This document shows positions 16,223 to 22,503 of a DNA stretch of 56,956 bases, one piece after another. The notes below the pieces were generated by a model. The model was not told the DNA's origin. It was given only the letters and a program-made list of their open reading frames with translations, and ran no database searches. How positions within the stretch are numbered: the stretch's first letter is position 1; every line of letters begins with the position of its first letter. The stretch spans positions 1 to 56,956 of the forward strand of contig JAFTSM010000033.1 in NCBI GenBank assembly GCA_017467305.1, given 5' to 3'. A program made the position numbers and the translations under genes. The stretch is from Candidatus Gastranaerophilales bacterium. Its GTDB lineage: Bacteria > Cyanobacteriota > Vampirovibrionia > Gastranaerophilales > Gastranaerophilaceae.

Positions 16223-17995
16223 TTATACAGTCATAAAACTCATATCTGAATCAAATTGAACTGCTTTTACTTTAAACTCATCACAACTAATACCTTCAAT
16301 GGTTTCATCATTTATGTTTTTGTAAGTAACTTTTACATTCTTTGGTAGAGTTGTACCATCTACTGCATAGCTATGATTTTGTGCTGAAACAATAATTTCA
16401 TCTGTTTCAAGGTTCATAATTGGATGGTTTGAACCTCTGTGTCCATATTTTAATTTTGTTGTTTTTGCACCTAATGCTAAACTTACAATTTGCATACCCA
16501 GTGAAACACCATAGATTGGCATTTTGCCTAATAATGATTTTACTGTTGAAATTGCTTTTGTAGCGTCTTCTGGATTTCCTGGTCCATTTGATACTAAAAG
16601 TGCTTCAACTTTTTCATTTAAAATATCTTCAGCAGTTGTATCAGATGGGAAAATTGTAATGTCATAGTTTAATGATTTTACTTCATCTATTAAACTTTTT
16701 CTTATACCCATATCCAAGATACCAAGTTTTTTACCACTTCCTACAATTTTTTCTATTTTGTAAGAAGAAACCTCGTTTGCGATATCTTTACTGATTTTAT
16801 ACTCTCTCATTTTTTGTTTGATTTCAGAAGTTATATCACCAGTTGTAATAGCACAATTCATTGAACCATTGTTTCTAATGATTTGAGTCAAATATCTTGT
16901 ATCAATACCTTTTAGACCAACAATGTTATTTTGTTTTAAATATTCATTTAAAGGTAATGCACTTTTATAGTGTGACTCATTCTCGCACATATTTTTTACA
17001 ATTAAACCTTTTGCGTGTATTTTCCCAGATTCAAAATCGTCTTTATTTATACCGTAGTTACCAATTTCTGGATATGTTAATACTATTGTTTGACCAGCAT
17101 ATGATGGGTCTGTAAGTGCTTCTTGATAACCCACCATTGATGTATTGAAAACAATCTCACCATATGAAGTACCATCAGCACCGATTGATTCACCTTCAAA
17201 AATCATACCGTTTTCTAAAATTAATTTGCCCTTTGAAGTTGCATAAGATTTATTTTGAGTTAATAGTGCATTTTCAATTTCTTCATAAATCATTTGAATA
17301 GCTTTAAGTCTATCTTCTGCACTTGTAACTGCTCTACCAATTACTAGGTAGTCAGCACCTTCTTTTATAGCAACACTTGGAGTAGCAATACGTTTTTGTT
17401 CATTTTTATTTGACCAATCTGGTCTAATACCAGGACAAAGAACTTTGAAATCTTTACCACAAGCTTGTTTGATTTTTTTTGCTTCCCAAACACTCGCAAC
17501 AACACCGTCTAGACCAGCCTTTTTAGCCATTAATGCTAAGTGAATTGCATATTCATTTGGCTTATATGGAACTTTTAATTCTTGTTGAAGTGCTTCTTCT
17601 GAAATACTTGTTAAAACAGTAACACCAAGAATAATTGGGTTTTCTCTGCCAAGCTCTTTTGCAGTTCTTCTTGCTGCTTCTTGTGCTTGTCGCATCATTT
17701 CTTCGCCACCTGTTGTGTGAACGTTATAGAAGGAAGCTCCATTTCTAATTACGTTTTCAGAAGCTTTTGCTACTGTATTTGGAATATCGTGAAGTTTAAC
17801 GTCGAAGAAGAACTTAATATTTTGCTCTTTCATAAAGTTAAAAATTTCATAACCATTCCCTGTATACATTTGTAGGCCAACTTTAAAAACACCTACATAG
17901 TCTTTTAATTCAGTAATTAGTTCTTTTGCTTGTTCTGGAGTATCTACATCCAGTGCGAGAACTATTTTCTCTTTAATCTCTGGTCTAATTTGCAT
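16223..17995 (-). CDS. pyrF-carA: Orotidine-5'-phosphate decarboxylase fused to a degenerate carbamoyl-phosphate synthase small subunit
   Basis: One 590-residue frame. Residues 1-245 are PyrF, with the catalytic D65-x-K67-x2-D70 in FDVKLHDIPNT and phosphate-binding LCPGIRP and VIGRAVT. From about 255 it is CarA: the N-terminal domain (NTSMVGYQEALTDPSY, GLKGIDTRYLTQIIR) and the glutaminase fold (LLVSNGPGNPEDA, KYGHRGSNHPI, SAQNHSYAVD). The nucleophile position GxCLGxQ reads GVSLGMQ, so Ser498 replaces Cys. The family's VQxHPExSPGP reads VQFDSDMSFMTV and then stops, losing the His and Glu and about 30 residues. PyrF should be active; CarA should have no glutaminase activity and may only support CarB. 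Only 19 nt follow before carB, so no missing piece is hidden downstream. Confidence 0.93.
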   Translation of the reverse strand: MQIRPEIKEKIVLALDVDTPEQAKELITELKDYVGVFKVGLQMYTGNGYEIFNFMKEQNIKFFFDVKLHDIPNTVAKASENVIRNGASFYNVHTTGGEEMMRQAQEAARRTAKELGRENPIILGVTVLTSISEEALQQELKVPYKPNEYAIHLALMAKKAGLDGVVASVWEAKKIKQACGKDFKVLCPGIRPDWSNKNEQKRIATPSVAIKEGADYLVIGRAVTSAEDRLKAIQMIYEEIENALLTQNKSYATSKGKLILENGMIFEGESIGADGTSYGEIVFNTSMVGYQEALTDPSYAGQTIVLTYPEIGNYGINKDDFESGKIHAKGLIVKNMCENESHYKSALPLNEYLKQNNIVGLKGIDTRYLTQIIRNNGSMNCAITTGDITSEIKQKMREYKISKDIANEVSSYKIEKIVGSGKKLGILDMGIRKSLIDEVKSLNYDITIFPSDTTAEDILNEKVEALLVSNGPGNPEDATKAISTVKSLLGKMPIYGVSLGMQIVSLALGAKTTKLKYGHRGSNHPIMNLETDEIIVSAQNHSYAVDGTTLPKNVKVTYKNINDETIEGISCDEFKVKAVQFDSDMSFMTV

Positions 17996-18000
17996 TGTTC

Positions 18001-19275
18001 TTATCCTATATTAATTATTTTACCTTTTATAATTGTCATTTTTTGTTTGCCTTTTAATTTGTATCCATCAAAAGGTGAAATTCTGCATTTTGATTTGAAT
18101 TGAGATGCATCAACAGTCCATTCTTCATTCAAATCAAATACAGTCATATTAGCTTCTTTGCCAACTTCAATTGAACCTTGATTTGGAATATTCAAAATTG
18201 AAGCTGGTGCATAAGTTAATTTTTTGATTGCTTCCATTAAGCTTAATTTACCACTATGAACAAGGTATGTAAGAGTGATACCTAAAGCAGTCTCAAAACC
18301 AACCATACCCATTGGTGCATTTTGGATTGGAAGTTGTTTTTCGTGGACAGTATGAGGTGCGTGGTCTGTTGCAATAGCATCTAACGTACCGTCTTGAAGA
18401 CCTTCGATTACTGCTTCTAAATCTTCTTTTGTTCTTAATGGAGGATTGACCTTGTATTTTGCATCATAATCAACCATATCATCTTCTGTTAAGCTGAAAT
18501 AATGTGGTGCAGTTTCTGCAGTTATATTTAAACCATCTTTCTTTGCTTGGCGAATTAATTCAATTGAGCGCTTTGTTGATATATGTGCAAAGTGATATTT
18601 GCCATTTACCGCTCTTACAACTTCTAGTTCTCTTGCTACTGCTAAAGATTCTGTTATGTTTGGAATTCCTTTTAATCCAAGTCTTGTTGCGACTTTTCCC
18701 TCATTTATGCAACCACCATTTGCAAGTGATGAATCTTCTGAGTGTGAAATTATTGTTGCATTATTAGAATTAACATATTTCAACGCTTCTTTTAGCAAAT
18801 ACATATTTTCTACTGGTTTACCGTCATCAGAAAATGCAATAGCACCATTATCAAGAAGTTCTGAAACATTAACCATTTTTTCATTGCCCAACCCTTTTGT
18901 CACTGCACAAATTGGATGAAAACCAATGTCAGAAACTTCTTTAGCTTTAATAATTGTATAAGTTAAGGTAGTAGCGTTATCAACTTGAGGATTTGTATTT
19001 GCCATTGGACAAATTGCAGTATAACCACCATTTATCGCTGAAGCGATACCTGTTTTAATTGTTTCCTTTGCATTAAATCCTGGTTCACGCAAGTGGCAGT
19101 GAATATCAACCAAGCCAGGTGTGATAATTTTACTGGTTAAATCAATAACTTCTTCGTTATCTTTTGGTTGAAGATTAACTGCTATTTCTTTAACAATACC
19201 ATCTTCTATTCTTATATCTGAAATACCCTCGAAATTTGTTTTAGGATTTACGATTTTTGCATTTTTAAGAAGCAT
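18001..19275 (-). CDS. pyrC: Dihydroorotase
   Basis: A 424-residue amidohydrolase of the long (class I, Bacillus-like) dihydroorotase type. Metal ligands appear in DIHCHLREPGFNAKETI, the HSED and FAHIST regions (ISHSEDSSLANGG; YHFAHISTKRS) and ATDHAPHTVHEK. It cyclises carbamoyl aspartate to dihydroorotate. Its start codon shares one base with the pyrB stop (TAATG), and only 5 nt separate it from pyrF-carA, so it is tightly coupled in the operon. Confidence 0.95.
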   Translation of the reverse strand: MLLKNAKIVNPKTNFEGISDIRIEDGIVKEIAVNLQPKDNEEVIDLTSKIITPGLVDIHCHLREPGFNAKETIKTGIASAINGGYTAICPMANTNPQVDNATTLTYTIIKAKEVSDIGFHPICAVTKGLGNEKMVNVSELLDNGAIAFSDDGKPVENMYLLKEALKYVNSNNATIISHSEDSSLANGGCINEGKVATRLGLKGIPNITESLAVARELEVVRAVNGKYHFAHISTKRSIELIRQAKKDGLNITAETAPHYFSLTEDDMVDYDAKYKVNPPLRTKEDLEAVIEGLQDGTLDAIATDHAPHTVHEKQLPIQNAPMGMVGFETALGITLTYLVHSGKLSLMEAIKKLTYAPASILNIPNQGSIEVGKEANMTVFDLNEEWTVDASQFKSKCRISPFDGYKLKGKQKMTIIKGKIINIG

Positions 19276-20183
19276 TATTTATCTCCTTTTAATAGTGTGT
19301 TTAAGATAGCCATTCTTACATAAACACCATTCTGTGCTTGTTCTAAGATTGTTTTACCAACACGGTTATCAAGAAGTTCTGACGAAACTTCTATGTTTCT
19401 ATTAGCTGGGCCTGGGTGCATTAATATTACATCATCAGCTGCATATTGTTTTAACAGATTAGTATCTATTTCAAACATTCTTTTATATTCAGTAGAATCT
19501 GGATAACCAGCTTTTTCGTGGCGTTCGTTTTGAACTCTTAGAACCATTACAACGTTAGCACCATCAATAGCTTCTTTTACATTGTTATGGTATTTTACGT
19601 TGAACGCTTGTTCATTTTCAAACTGTAAATATGTTGGTGCACATAAGTTAATATCAGCACCAAATTTTGATAATAAACTAATATTTGATTTTGCTACACG
19701 TGAGTGAGAAACATCACCAACAATAGTAATTTTCTTTCCTTCTACACTTCCAATTTTTTCAAGCATTGTATAGAAATCTAAAAGAGCTTGTGAAGGATGT
19801 GCGTGAGTTCCATCACCACCATTAACAAAATGGATTGGGTATTTCACCAATCGCATTACGTTGTTTATTATTCCAGATAAAGAGTGTCTAATAACTACAG
19901 CATCAACACCTAAGAAGTATAAGTTTTCCATTGTATCTTTTAAGCTTTCACCCTTAGATAAAGAAGAATGACTTGCATCAAAATTGATGATATTCATTCC
20001 TAGCTTTTGAGCCGCAATTTCAAAACTACATCTTGTTCTTGTTGAGTTTTCATAAAACATCAAAGATAGAGTTTTCTTTTCAACATCAGACTTTTTAGTT
20101 CCTTTTTTAAACTCTTTTGCAAGATTTATGATATTTAAAATTTCTTCTTTTGAAATACTTTTAATATCAATTAAATGTTCCAT
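19275..20183 (-). CDS. pyrB: Aspartate carbamoyltransferase catalytic subunit
   Basis: A 302-residue ATCase. The carbamoyl-phosphate loop FYENSTRTRCSFEIA, the SLSKGESLKDT loop, the HAHPSQALLD motif and MHPGPANRNIE are all present. It condenses carbamoyl phosphate with aspartate. No regulatory subunit PyrI is in the operon, so allosteric control as in E. coli is unlikely. Start and stop share bases with the neighbours (TAATG at both ends). Confidence 0.97.
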   Translation of the reverse strand: MEHLIDIKSISKEEILNIINLAKEFKKGTKKSDVEKKTLSLMFYENSTRTRCSFEIAAQKLGMNIINFDASHSSLSKGESLKDTMENLYFLGVDAVVIRHSLSGIINNVMRLVKYPIHFVNGGDGTHAHPSQALLDFYTMLEKIGSVEGKKITIVGDVSHSRVAKSNISLLSKFGADINLCAPTYLQFENEQAFNVKYHNNVKEAIDGANVVMVLRVQNERHEKAGYPDSTEYKRMFEIDTNLLKQYAADDVILMHPGPANRNIEVSSELLDNRVGKTILEQAQNGVYVRMAILNTLLKGDK

Positions 20184-20761
20184 TATGCTTTTGCCTTTTC
20201 TTCTGCTCTGCTACCTGGTTTTACAAGTTCAATACCTTCTTTACAAAGTGGGCAATCACTTGGGTCATAAACAACTGGGTCAATTTGTAATAAAGATTTG
20301 ATATTATAATCTGTTTTACCTTGTGTTCTATCAACGATACAACCAACTGCTACAACTTCTGGTTCGAATTCTTTAATTGCTTCCATTGTTTCTTTGATTG
20401 TTCTTGCAGTTGTAATAACGTCTTCAATGATTACTACTCTTTCACCTTTTTTAAGAGTATAACCACGTCTTAACTGCATTTCGCCATCTTTTCTTTCAAC
20501 AAACAAATTACGTTTTTTCGCATTTTTTGCAGTTTCATAACCAATTATTACTGCGCCTATTGCTGGAGCTACAATTGTATCAAATTCAACATCAGCAAGT
20601 TTTTCTGCTAATAATTTACCAAGTTCTGATGTTATTTCTGGATATTGATATAGTTTTGCACATTGAAAATAAATATCAGAGTGAAGTCCTGATGTTAAAC
20701 AAAAATGTCCGTGAAGTACTCCTTCTGCTTGTTCTAATAAATTTAAAACTTTGTTTGTCAT
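20183..20761 (-). CDS. pyrE: Orotate phosphoribosyltransferase
   Basis: A 192-residue type I phosphoribosyltransferase. The PRPP loop is VVIIEDVITTARTIKE, slightly changed from the common DVxTTGxS. FVERKDGEMQLRRGY is the flexible loop that carries catalytic Lys/Arg. The tail DCPLCKEGIELVKPGSR with two Cys is typical of a long PyrE subfamily. It joins orotate to PRPP to give OMP, the substrate of the PyrF domain two genes further on. Confidence 0.94.
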   Translation of the reverse strand: MTNKVLNLLEQAEGVLHGHFCLTSGLHSDIYFQCAKLYQYPEITSELGKLLAEKLADVEFDTIVAPAIGAVIIGYETAKNAKKRNLFVERKDGEMQLRRGYTLKKGERVVIIEDVITTARTIKETMEAIKEFEPEVVAVGCIVDRTQGKTDYNIKSLLQIDPVVYDPSDCPLCKEGIELVKPGSRAEEKAKA

Positions 20762-21675
20762 TATGCCCTCAATTCTTTCTTTAATTCATCTAAACTTTCA
20801 AAACCATTTTTTGTAATGTATTCTTCTAATTCTTTCACCAATTTTTCAGCTGTTTCTGGATGAGTAAAGTTAGCAGTGCCTACTTGAACAGCTTCAGCCC
20901 CAGCTGCAAAGAATTCCAGTACATCATCTAAGGTTTCAATACCACCAATACCAATGATTGGAATATTTATAACTTTTGATAATCTACTAACAGCACCTAT
21001 TGCTACTGGTTTAATACCAATACCAGAATATCCACCTTGTACAATAGTTTTTATAAATTTACCGCTAACTCGTTCAATTTTAATAGACATTCCTTTTAAA
21101 GTATTTATTGCACTAACAGCATTTGCACCTGCTTTTTCTGCTGCTATACCTAACTTTTCAATAGAAGTTACGTTTGGAGTCAATTTAACAATCAAAAAGC
21201 CGTTGTAAACTGCTCTTACAGCACTAACCAACTCATATAATGAATTTTCATCCGTACCAAACTCTAAACAACCTGATTTTACGTTTGGACAAGATACATT
21301 TAATTCAATTGCTTTTATATTATTTTCATCACATTTTTTAGCTACTTGAACATACTCATCTATCGTAGAACCAGCAACGTTCATAATATAATCAATATTA
21401 TTTTCATTTAGTTCTGGTACTTTAACTTCTAAAAATTTATCTATACCAACATTTTCTAAGCCGATAGAATTTATCATGCCAGCTCTTGTTTCAGTAATAC
21501 GAATATGCTTATTGCCTGCACGTGGGTGTAATGATATTGCTTTTGTAACTACTGCACCAAGATTTGAAACATCAATAAAATCGTTATATTCACTTGCATA
21601 ACCATATGTGCCAGAAGCGGTCATTATGGGATTTTTAAGTTCAAACCCATTTAAGTTTACGCTTAATTTTCCCAT
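20761..21675 (-). CDS. pyrD: Dihydroorotate dehydrogenase (class 1B catalytic subunit)
   Basis: A 304-residue FMN TIM-barrel enzyme. The active-site cysteine is in ELNVSCPNVKSG, and INSIGLENVG and IGIGGIETLDDVLEF are the substrate and FMN regions. Class 1B enzymes are heterotetramers with PyrK and use NAD+; the pyrK gene overlaps its start by 13 nt, which supports the class. It oxidises dihydroorotate to orotate without the respiratory quinone pool, which suits an anaerobic or fermentative life. Confidence 0.96.
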   Translation of the reverse strand: MGKLSVNLNGFELKNPIMTASGTYGYASEYNDFIDVSNLGAVVTKAISLHPRAGNKHIRITETRAGMINSIGLENVGIDKFLEVKVPELNENNIDYIMNVAGSTIDEYVQVAKKCDENNIKAIELNVSCPNVKSGCLEFGTDENSLYELVSAVRAVYNGFLIVKLTPNVTSIEKLGIAAEKAGANAVSAINTLKGMSIKIERVSGKFIKTIVQGGYSGIGIKPVAIGAVSRLSKVINIPIIGIGGIETLDDVLEFFAAGAEAVQVGTANFTHPETAEKLVKELEEYITKNGFESLDELKKELRA

Positions 21676-22412
21676 ACTACCTCACTTCCTTTGAACACAG
21701 GGCCATCCTTGCACACTGTAGCGTTTACTATTTTGCCGTCTTTTTTAATATCTATGACACAACCACGACAAACACCAATTCCACAAGCCATAACTTTTTC
21801 CATTGCAACTTGTGTTTCTATTCCGTATTTTTCACCTTGTTCTGCAACTATTTTTAAAACTATATGTGGACCACACGCATAAATCACTTCTGGTTTATGT
21901 TCATTAATAAGAACACCTAAGTAATTTAGTACACTTCCAGCATCACCGAATGAACCGTCATCAGTACAAATCTTGTCAATTTTCATTCCTGCTGGAACTT
22001 CATCCTTTGTTAAAAAGCCAGCTGCATAATAGTTTTTAATACCTTTTTCATCAAGTTTTTCCTTTAAATAAGCCATTGGTGCTGCACCAATACCAGCACC
22101 AATCAACAAAGCTTTTTTATTTTGAATATCGAAAGTATTGCCAAAAGGCCCAGCAATATCAATAAAATCACCAACTTTAAGTGATTTAATATATTGCGTG
22201 CCTTTTCCTCTTTCTTTAAAGAGGACACCTATTCTACCATTATTGTTTGAGTAAACGCTAAATGGTCTACGTAGAGTCAAACCGTCACAATATATTGATA
22301 TAAATTGACCAGCTTCAACTTTTACCGGTATTTCACATTCAATTTCAATAAAATGTGAACTTGCACTTACTCTTTCAATTCTATTTACTTTTGCTTTGTA
22401 TATTTTTTTCAT
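21663..22412 (-). CDS. pyrK: Dihydroorotate dehydrogenase electron transfer subunit
   Basis: A 249-residue FAD/[2Fe-2S] protein. RRPFSVYS is the FAD motif, LLIGAGIGAAPMAYL binds NAD(P), and the iron-sulfur ligands are C-x4-C-x2-C in MACGIGVCRGCVIDI with a later VCKDGP Cys. It passes electrons from PyrD to NAD+. The start at 22412 is preferred over an ATG at 22433, because the latter lies inside an intergenic palindromic repeat. First structural gene of the operon. Confidence 0.94.
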   Translation of the reverse strand: MKKIYKAKVNRIERVSASSHFIEIECEIPVKVEAGQFISIYCDGLTLRRPFSVYSNNNGRIGVLFKERGKGTQYIKSLKVGDFIDIAGPFGNTFDIQNKKALLIGAGIGAAPMAYLKEKLDEKGIKNYYAAGFLTKDEVPAGMKIDKICTDDGSFGDAGSVLNYLGVLINEHKPEVIYACGPHIVLKIVAEQGEKYGIETQVAMEKVMACGIGVCRGCVIDIKKDGKIVNATVCKDGPVFKGSEVVWEN

Positions 22413-22428
22413 ATCATTCTTTCTTTTT

Positions 22429-22503
22429 GTCATTCTGAACTTGTTTCAGAATCTTATTACTATAAATTTTTCTGGTTAGACTCTGAAATAAATTCAGAGT
22501 GAC
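22429..22503. repeat. GTCAT...GTGAC palindromic repeat in the pyr leader
   Basis: A 75-bp element bounded by GTCATTCTGAA and TTCAGAGTGAC (imperfect inverted ends), made of two hairpins: ATTCTGAA/TTTCAGAAT at the left and ACTCTGAA/TTCAGAGT at the right. A related copy is at 35130-35192. It lies between the attenuator-like hairpin and pyrK, so it is transcribed in the leader. Confidence 0.75.

Follow-up and report, generated by a model that had tools for sequence, protein, structure and literature searches.

The pyrimidine operon of a Candidatus Gastranaerophilales bacterium raises a crucial question about nitrogen supply: what feeds a carbamoyl phosphate synthetase (CPS) whose small subunit no longer carries the Cys-His-Glu triad of a glutaminase? 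The window, by which we mean the whole stretch of 56,956 nucleotides analyzed here, had been given a sequence-only reading in which this enzyme depends on ammonia through a loss parallel to that of mitochondrial CPS1, and both the anatomy of the locus and the pattern of selection on it support that proposal. We conclude that the glutaminase of the window CPS is very probably catalytically dead, and that CarB would therefore work from bicarbonate, ATP, and free NH3. The argument has three parts: the triad is lost, our searches turned up no substitute, and the remainder of the enzyme is conserved, which together point to an ammonia-fed CPS.

A PyrF-CarA fusion with a damaged glutaminase site

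The window genome (1.85 Mb in 75 contigs, 89% complete) has many relatives from gut samples, e.g., goat caecum, rumen, roe deer omasum, and probably rabbit ("Lapin"). Its pyrimidine genes form a compact operon in the order pyrK-pyrD-pyrE-pyrB-pyrC-pyrF/carA-carB (Table 1). A single open reading frame encodes OMP decarboxylase, CPSase_sm_chain, and class I GATase domains, in that order. The PyrF part belongs to the OMPdecase/PRK00230 family; the CarA part scores above cut-off with PF00988, PF00117, and TIGR01368 and has the domain order of that family. The separate CarB scores above cut-off with TIGR01369 and contains the two ATP-grasp halves, the oligomerization domain, and the MGS-like domain of a CarB, and its residues aligned to E. 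coli positions 232, 251, and 314 are C, A, and A, the same as in E. coli. We take these three positions to be the E. coli gate. The assignment agrees with the residues that PMC4655335 gives for the CPS1 gate. The PyrF-CarA fusion is present across the window's genus (g1) and in three more genera of the family (g13, g33, and g21; genomes G053, G073, and G061); other genomes have pyrF and carA as adjacent, unfused genes.

Table 1. Coordinates of the window operon and of two unusual CarB relatives in other genomes of the family
Feature	Position	Strand	Basis
pyrF-carA fusion gene, 590 aa	16223..17995	-	ORF and domain profile matches
PyrF (OMP decarboxylase) domain, residues 1-242, strongly constrained	17270..17995	-	domain match, selection analysis
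CPSase_sm_chain (CarA N-terminal) domain, residues 258-383, strongly constrained	16847..17224	-	
GATase-like domain, residues 426-581, diverged; Cys replaced, then broken HPE motif	16253..16720	-	
Ser498 (TCA) at the nucleophile Cys position (E. coli Cys269)	16502..16504	-	
Asp-Ser-Asp, residues 582-584, at the His-Pro-Glu position	16244..16252	-	
Unrelated 6-residue tail and stop, where most congeners have 27 further residues	16223..16243	-	
carB, 1078 aa	12967..16203	-	ORF and domain matches
pyrC (dihydroorotase)	18001..19275	-	family domain
pyrB (aspartate carbamoyltransferase family)	19275..20183	-	family domain
pyrE-like phosphoribosyltransferase	20183..20761	-	family domain
pyrD (dihydroorotate dehydrogenase)	20761..21675	-	family domain
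pyrK-like electron transfer subunit	21663..22433	-	family domain
G154 single-chain PyrF-CPS_sm-CarB, 1481 aa, without glutaminase domain	L159:4768-9213	-	
G197 CarB-like enzyme, 895 aa	L234:2857-5544	+	
G197 NodU/Carbam_trans-type O-carbamoyltransferase	L234:5897-7741		

Aligned to the E. coli chain, the triad C269/H353/E355 falls on S498, D582, and D584 of the window protein, which thus lacks the Cys-His-Glu triad of a CarA. The Ser codon stands in the motif GVSLGMQ exactly as the sequence-only reading had it. Each of the three residues is invariant among the 135 CarAs of our intact set (C/H/E in 135/135), so the window state is not ordinary variation. The motif VQF-H-P-E of most congeners reads VQF-D-S-D here, and the protein stops 6 residues later, while most congeners are 611 aa long and continue for 27 residues after the Glu. 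The earlier description of this end was right that His and Glu are gone and that the protein ends close by, but the shortening is about 21 residues net, not 30, and the end is not a simple stop. In a DNA alignment of the window with four congeners, a length difference of one base falls at the third codon of the motif, whose Asp may come from that difference, and the gap between the motif and carB is 40 bases in the window versus 67 to 143 (median, 100) in 41 other genomes; taken together, these two differences describe a 3' end produced by a frame change plus a deletion. The protein retains the equivalents of E. coli S47 (Ser298 of the CPSase_sm_chain domain, by alignment), Q273, and N311, and its glutamine pocket therefore looks less eroded than its catalytic residues.

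Recurrence of the loss across the family

We compiled 120 CarAs from the family, 40 from the window's genus and 80 from 288 family genomes sampled out of a larger set. Excluding that of G339, which is cut by a contig end, and counting that of G011 by its second piece, 119 could be assessed: 108 have C/H/E, 10 have a damaged triad, and 1 (G154) has had the whole glutaminase domain deleted. Within the genus, 36 CarAs have C/H/E and 4 do not, namely the window (G000; S/D/D), G032 (G/H/D), G002 (G/H/E), and G039 (C/Y/E), which retains its Cys; G032 and G002 are sister species that share Gly at the Cys position. The damaged triads outside the genus are those of G083 (G/T/D), whose congener G043 is intact, G080 and G167 (both S/L/E), G291 (S/N/E), G337 (G/Y/E), and G365 (G/E/Y). 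A fetched subset of 27 matches from outside the family has C/H/E throughout (15/15 from other families of the order and 12/12 from the rest of the class), and 11/119 against 0/27 is no strong contrast, so we do not claim an excess of losses relative to other families. The CarA of G011 (Candidatus Avigastranaerophilus faecigallinarum; L112:8001-9757) has a frame break near residue 362 with its triad intact, which is compatible with either an assembly error or a true pseudogene.

In a tree built from 114 CarB rows, which omits 11 genomes with short or absent CarB, has outgroup rows that do not form one clade, and carries SH-aLRT support only, the 11 losers require 8 changes, 7 of them forced by well-supported branches. 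The window clusters with G032 and G002 (support, 89/92 in our careful tree and 93 in the 114-row CarB tree), and these three may share a single loss. Up to seven other lineages are damaged at the same site. The window is therefore not a case of intact relatives around a frameshift confined to one assembly, and the alignment of CarA across relatives adds a point that was absent from the sequence-only reading, which is that the loss recurs. The fusion of CarA to PyrF had likewise gone unnoticed in that reading.

The changes extend beyond the triad. Among 19 tabulated CarA positions, 13 are invariant in the 135 intact rows, apart from one gap at S47: S47, G241, G243, C269, L270, Q273, G292, N311, H312, H353, P354, E355, and G359 (E. 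coli numbering). S47 is changed in 7 of the 11 losers; in the 10 whose GATase domain survives, substitutions affect Q273 five times and L270 three times, and G359 is substituted or absent in six. We take S47, L270, Q273, N311, and G359 to be glutamine binding or tunnel residues. A blocked tunnel at E. coli Gly293, where human CPS1 has Gln, was considered as a marker and set aside, because 42 of the 135 intact rows have A or S there; the genus losers have S/A/S/T at this position versus G in 35 of 36 intact congeners. The partner subunit is largely preserved: of 413 CarB columns, each at least 98% conserved in intact rows, the losers keep 394 to 413 per lineage. The number changed reaches 15 in G083 and 19 in G365, compared with an intact maximum of 14, and CarB itself may be loosening in these two. 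CarB position 346, Phe in 100% of intact rows, is changed in four of the eight loser lineages (Val in the window); as a candidate convergent change, we treat it as a lead only.

Two genomes mark the limits of what can be discarded. In G154, a single open reading frame runs from OMPdecase through CPSase_sm_chain into all of the CarB domains, the GATase having been removed in frame, and the letters of this chain in GATase alignment columns are misaligned CarB residues that we did not count as changes; in its congener G061, carB is a separate gene and the PyrF-CarA fusion retains the triad. G154 thus shows which portion of CarA is dispensable. The CarB-specific domain PF02787 is found in the same 100 of 288 genomes as PF00988, and in G197 and G275 besides. 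We rejected G275 as a case of CarB without CarA, since its match is below cut-off and, among the open reading frames of at least 250 aa listed for the region, none reads as CarB. G197, 99% complete and with no CarA match, encodes a CarB-like enzyme that is 49% identical to window CarB and above the TIGR01369 and PRK05294 cut-offs, with both ATP-grasp halves, a partial oligomerization domain, and no MGS match. Its gene has an acyl-ACP thioesterase-like gene on one side and an O-carbamoyltransferase gene on the other, and the enzyme probably supplies the neighboring carbamoyltransferase from free ammonia. G197 rules out the generalization that CarB always occurs together with CarA; a relative of CarB can survive on its own, and the CarA N-terminal domain is not indispensable to every such relative. 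In the pyrimidine CPSs, judging by their domain content, the N-terminal domain is retained even when the glutaminase is dead or deleted. Across the 288 sampled genomes, a CarA match is missing from 188 and a CarB-domain match from 186, which suggests that carbamoyl-phosphate synthesis has been widely lost in the family.

Glutamine sources, selection, and competing explanations

A replacement for the lost glutaminase was sought at several levels. The PF00988 search found one CarA in the 89% complete window genome and no second copy, the finding that would most directly have undercut an ammonia-dependent reading. CarA occurs in 40 of the 42 genus genomes, always at one place, and is absent from 2; among the 288 sampled family genomes, no second CarA was found, PF00988 giving one match in each of the 100 genomes that have it, and the two matches in G011 are pieces of one gene. 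PF00117 identifies three GATases in the window genome: CarA, a CTP synthase with intact GLCLGMQ and QFHPE motifs, and a HisH with intact GICIGLQ and QFHPE motifs. Among these GATases, the loss in the window genome is therefore specific to CarA. The same search of the 42 genus genomes gave two or three matches in each other genus loser. GuaA (GMP synthase) was not recognized among the PF00117 matches of these genomes, and the long stand-alone PF00117 frames of the genus have the length of CTP synthase, that of the window genome having been read in detail. A stand-alone glutaminase partner, suggested earlier as a check, did not appear either: PF04960 matched 0 of 30 genomes, all 11 losers included, and 4 of 14 control genomes. 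Carbamate kinase was rejected as a bypass, TIGR00746 giving weak matches to the C-terminal part only in 41 of the 42 genus genomes and none over cut-off in any. The window genome has a second aspartate/ornithine carbamoyltransferase match (G000:C44:73643-74065), missing from nine other genus genomes examined, with an amino-acid kinase match ~6 kb away; this is perhaps an arginine cluster.

Divergence and selection place the extra change in one part of the enzyme. Between the window and 13 congeners, identity is 56 to 66% in the GATase domain, compared with 84 to 93% in PyrF, 80 to 94% in CPS_sm, and 87 to 91% in CarB. Because synonymous sites are saturated, we discarded the free-fit dN/dS per domain and computed omega with CarB supplying the synonymous branch lengths. 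GATase omega on this basis is 0.192 on the window branch versus a background of 0.077 (LRT, 25.4) and 0.168 for G032 plus G002 (LRT, 33.6), with no rise in G039 (0.084 versus 0.083) and values of 0.036 to 0.077 on five control branches. On the window branch, PyrF is at 0.023 and CPS_sm at 0.016, the latter somewhat raised for G032 plus G002 (0.065 versus 0.035; LRT, 6.4). CarB omega on the genus loser branches is 0.030 (free fit). The discarded GATase free fits gave 0.024 on the window branch, where the fit hit its bound of 20, 0.098 for G032 plus G002, 0.079 for the whole three-member clade, 0.196 for G039 (2dlnL, 6.34), 0.029 to 0.054 for controls, and, for the four genus losers pooled, a nonsignificant 0.112 versus 0.073 (2dlnL, 2.83). 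The ratio of GATase to CarB nearest-relative distance is 5.5 in the window, against a median of 2.2 and a 95% quantile of 3.7 in 102 intact rows; 6 of 10 losers exceed that quantile, G080, G167, G337, and G365 lie within it, and for the CPS_sm/CarB ratio none of the 10 goes beyond the intact 95% quantile. By these measures, the extra change is centered on the GATase domain and linker, with PyrF, the CarA N-terminal domain, and CarB constrained in the genus. GATase omega in the genus losers is nevertheless far below 1, and rejects 1 in each, which counts against a wholly functionless domain, although part of each loser branch may predate the loss.

Could the damage instead be an early step in losing pyrimidine synthesis, with salvage making the operon unneeded and the 3' CarA end of the fusion the first to decay? 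The frequency with which the family has lost the enzyme, the window's GATase/CarB ratio, which is the highest of the ten losers, and the CarB loosening in G083 and G365 all lean that way. We nonetheless consider it unlikely, given the strong purifying selection on genus loser branches (omega of 0.016 to 0.065 for PyrF and CPS_sm and 0.030 for CarB), the remaining window pyr genes, which are uninterrupted and carry the domains expected of their families, the in-frame junctions on both sides of the G154 deletion, and the many changes at catalytic and presumed glutamine-site residues.

That CarB still receives glutamine nitrogen, from another glutaminase or from a second CarA encoded in the unassembled remainder, is less probable again: incomplete assembly in 75 contigs would leave room for such a gene, whereas the genus and family searches found no second CarA, the GATases detected offer no candidate, PF04960 has no match in the 30 genomes searched, and a free glutaminase would in any case deliver free rather than channeled ammonia. 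Least credible is an assembly or sequencing error in this metagenome-assembled genome. A one-base frame difference at the 3' end and the separate break in G011 are what such errors look like, but the Ser498 codon is two bases away from any Cys codon, and the Cys-to-Ser, His-to-Asp, and Pro-to-Ser changes (Ser498, Asp582, and Ser583) all lie upstream of the frame change, so no single sequencing error accounts for the damage; the Gly of G032 and G002 and the other damaged lineages would also have to be explained.

An ammonia-fed CPS remains the favored explanation. In such an enzyme, CarB would use free NH3, with bicarbonate and ATP, for carbamoyl phosphate synthesis in vivo, and the retained CarA N-terminal domain would act as a structural partner of CarB, holding it active or perhaps forming the wall of an ammonia path where CarA meets CarB, like the one proposed for CPS1. 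Ammonia in the gut, if sufficient, would be the reason that the glutaminase can be dispensed with. Passages of a review (PMC6245113) state that CarB makes carbamoyl phosphate from ammonia and cite Rubino et al., whose title describes carbamoyl phosphate synthesis in vivo by the large subunit of the E. coli enzyme with NH3 as substrate; they also state that E. coli CPS can use ammonia only at very high, likely nonphysiological concentrations, which counts against ammonia as the donor. So do the presence of an Amt match in only 1 of 42 genus genomes, glutamine synthetase in 30 of the 30 genomes examined, and the 89% completeness of the window genome; neither a dedicated transporter nor a glutamine shortage explains the shift. 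The Cys kept by G039, together with its unraised GATase omega, the ordinary distance ratios of G080, G167, G337, and G365, and the altered CarB columns of G083 and G365 weigh on the same side.

Relation to known carbamoyl phosphate synthetases

The best reading of the window CPS would make it like vertebrate CPS I in nitrogen source and a bacterial CarAB by descent. It shares that descent with E. coli CarAB (CPS II), along with its domain order and matches to TIGR01368 and TIGR01369, and differs in lacking the catalytic Cys, His, and Glu; the model name "glutamine-hydrolyzing" probably misdescribes it, a warning for automatic annotation, which labels these proteins in this way. The best PDB sequence match to the window, the E. 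coli CarA of 1c30, also has Ser at position 269, which we take to be a deliberate C269S mutation; there a single residue differs and the rest of the site is intact, whereas the window loss is natural and wider.

Residues 254 to 584 of the window protein align with human CPS1. CPS1 keeps the His and Glu, while the window has lost all three triad residues and the C-terminal end; the window enzyme is moreover the product of two genes in a pyrimidine operon, with CarA fused to PyrF, rather than the single ~1500-residue chain of CPS I, an arrangement approached only by G154, without a GATase. What is shared is Ser in place of the catalytic Cys and an inactive glutaminase-like domain, a feature of CPS I, the ammonia-specific type that also depends on N-acetylglutamate for its activation. 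Passages of PMC4655335 confirm the earlier remark that mitochondrial CPS1 lacks the Cys, reporting Ser there, an ancestral, inactive glutaminase-like domain, and ammonia as donor; they suggest an ammonia path that bypasses the dead site along the interface of the two moieties, and state that every CPS type but CPS1 uses glutamine.

Glutamine use appears to have been lost naturally and repeatedly among these bacterial CPSs, most likely leaving ammonia-dependent enzymes. About eight independent bacterial candidate exceptions, in one family of uncultured bacteria and with intact close relatives at hand, would open the transition from glutamine to ammonia to replicated comparison, and, if the reading is true, the pyrimidine synthesis of a gut group is tied to ambient ammonia. 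More tentatively, at somewhat short of an even chance, the glutamine-using arm may have been repeatedly and adaptively dismantled in this family, through the catalytic residues, the glutamine site and tunnel, and finally the whole domain (G154), with the CarB-only enzyme of G197 recruited separately, as a prokaryotic counterpart of the passage from CPS II/III to CPS I. Its boldest part, that the CarA N-terminal domain would be kept because ammonia entry needs it, is weakened by G197.

In the titles and abstract openings listed by our capped searches of the open-access literature, we found neither a bacterial CPS with a lost glutaminase nor a PyrF-CarA fusion, which is weak evidence of absence. 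Further parallels lie elsewhere. According to passages of PMC7657897, Alcolapia CPS III has moved convergently toward ammonia through a change in the glutamine site, although the fish enzyme keeps its triad and serves urea synthesis. The small CPS of Methanobrevibacter smithii (PMC6022934) comes, like the window enzyme, from a gut prokaryote and needs synthetase domains alone; being a 41-kDa single-type synthetase dimer, it differs from a CarAB whose glutaminase is dead or has been deleted.
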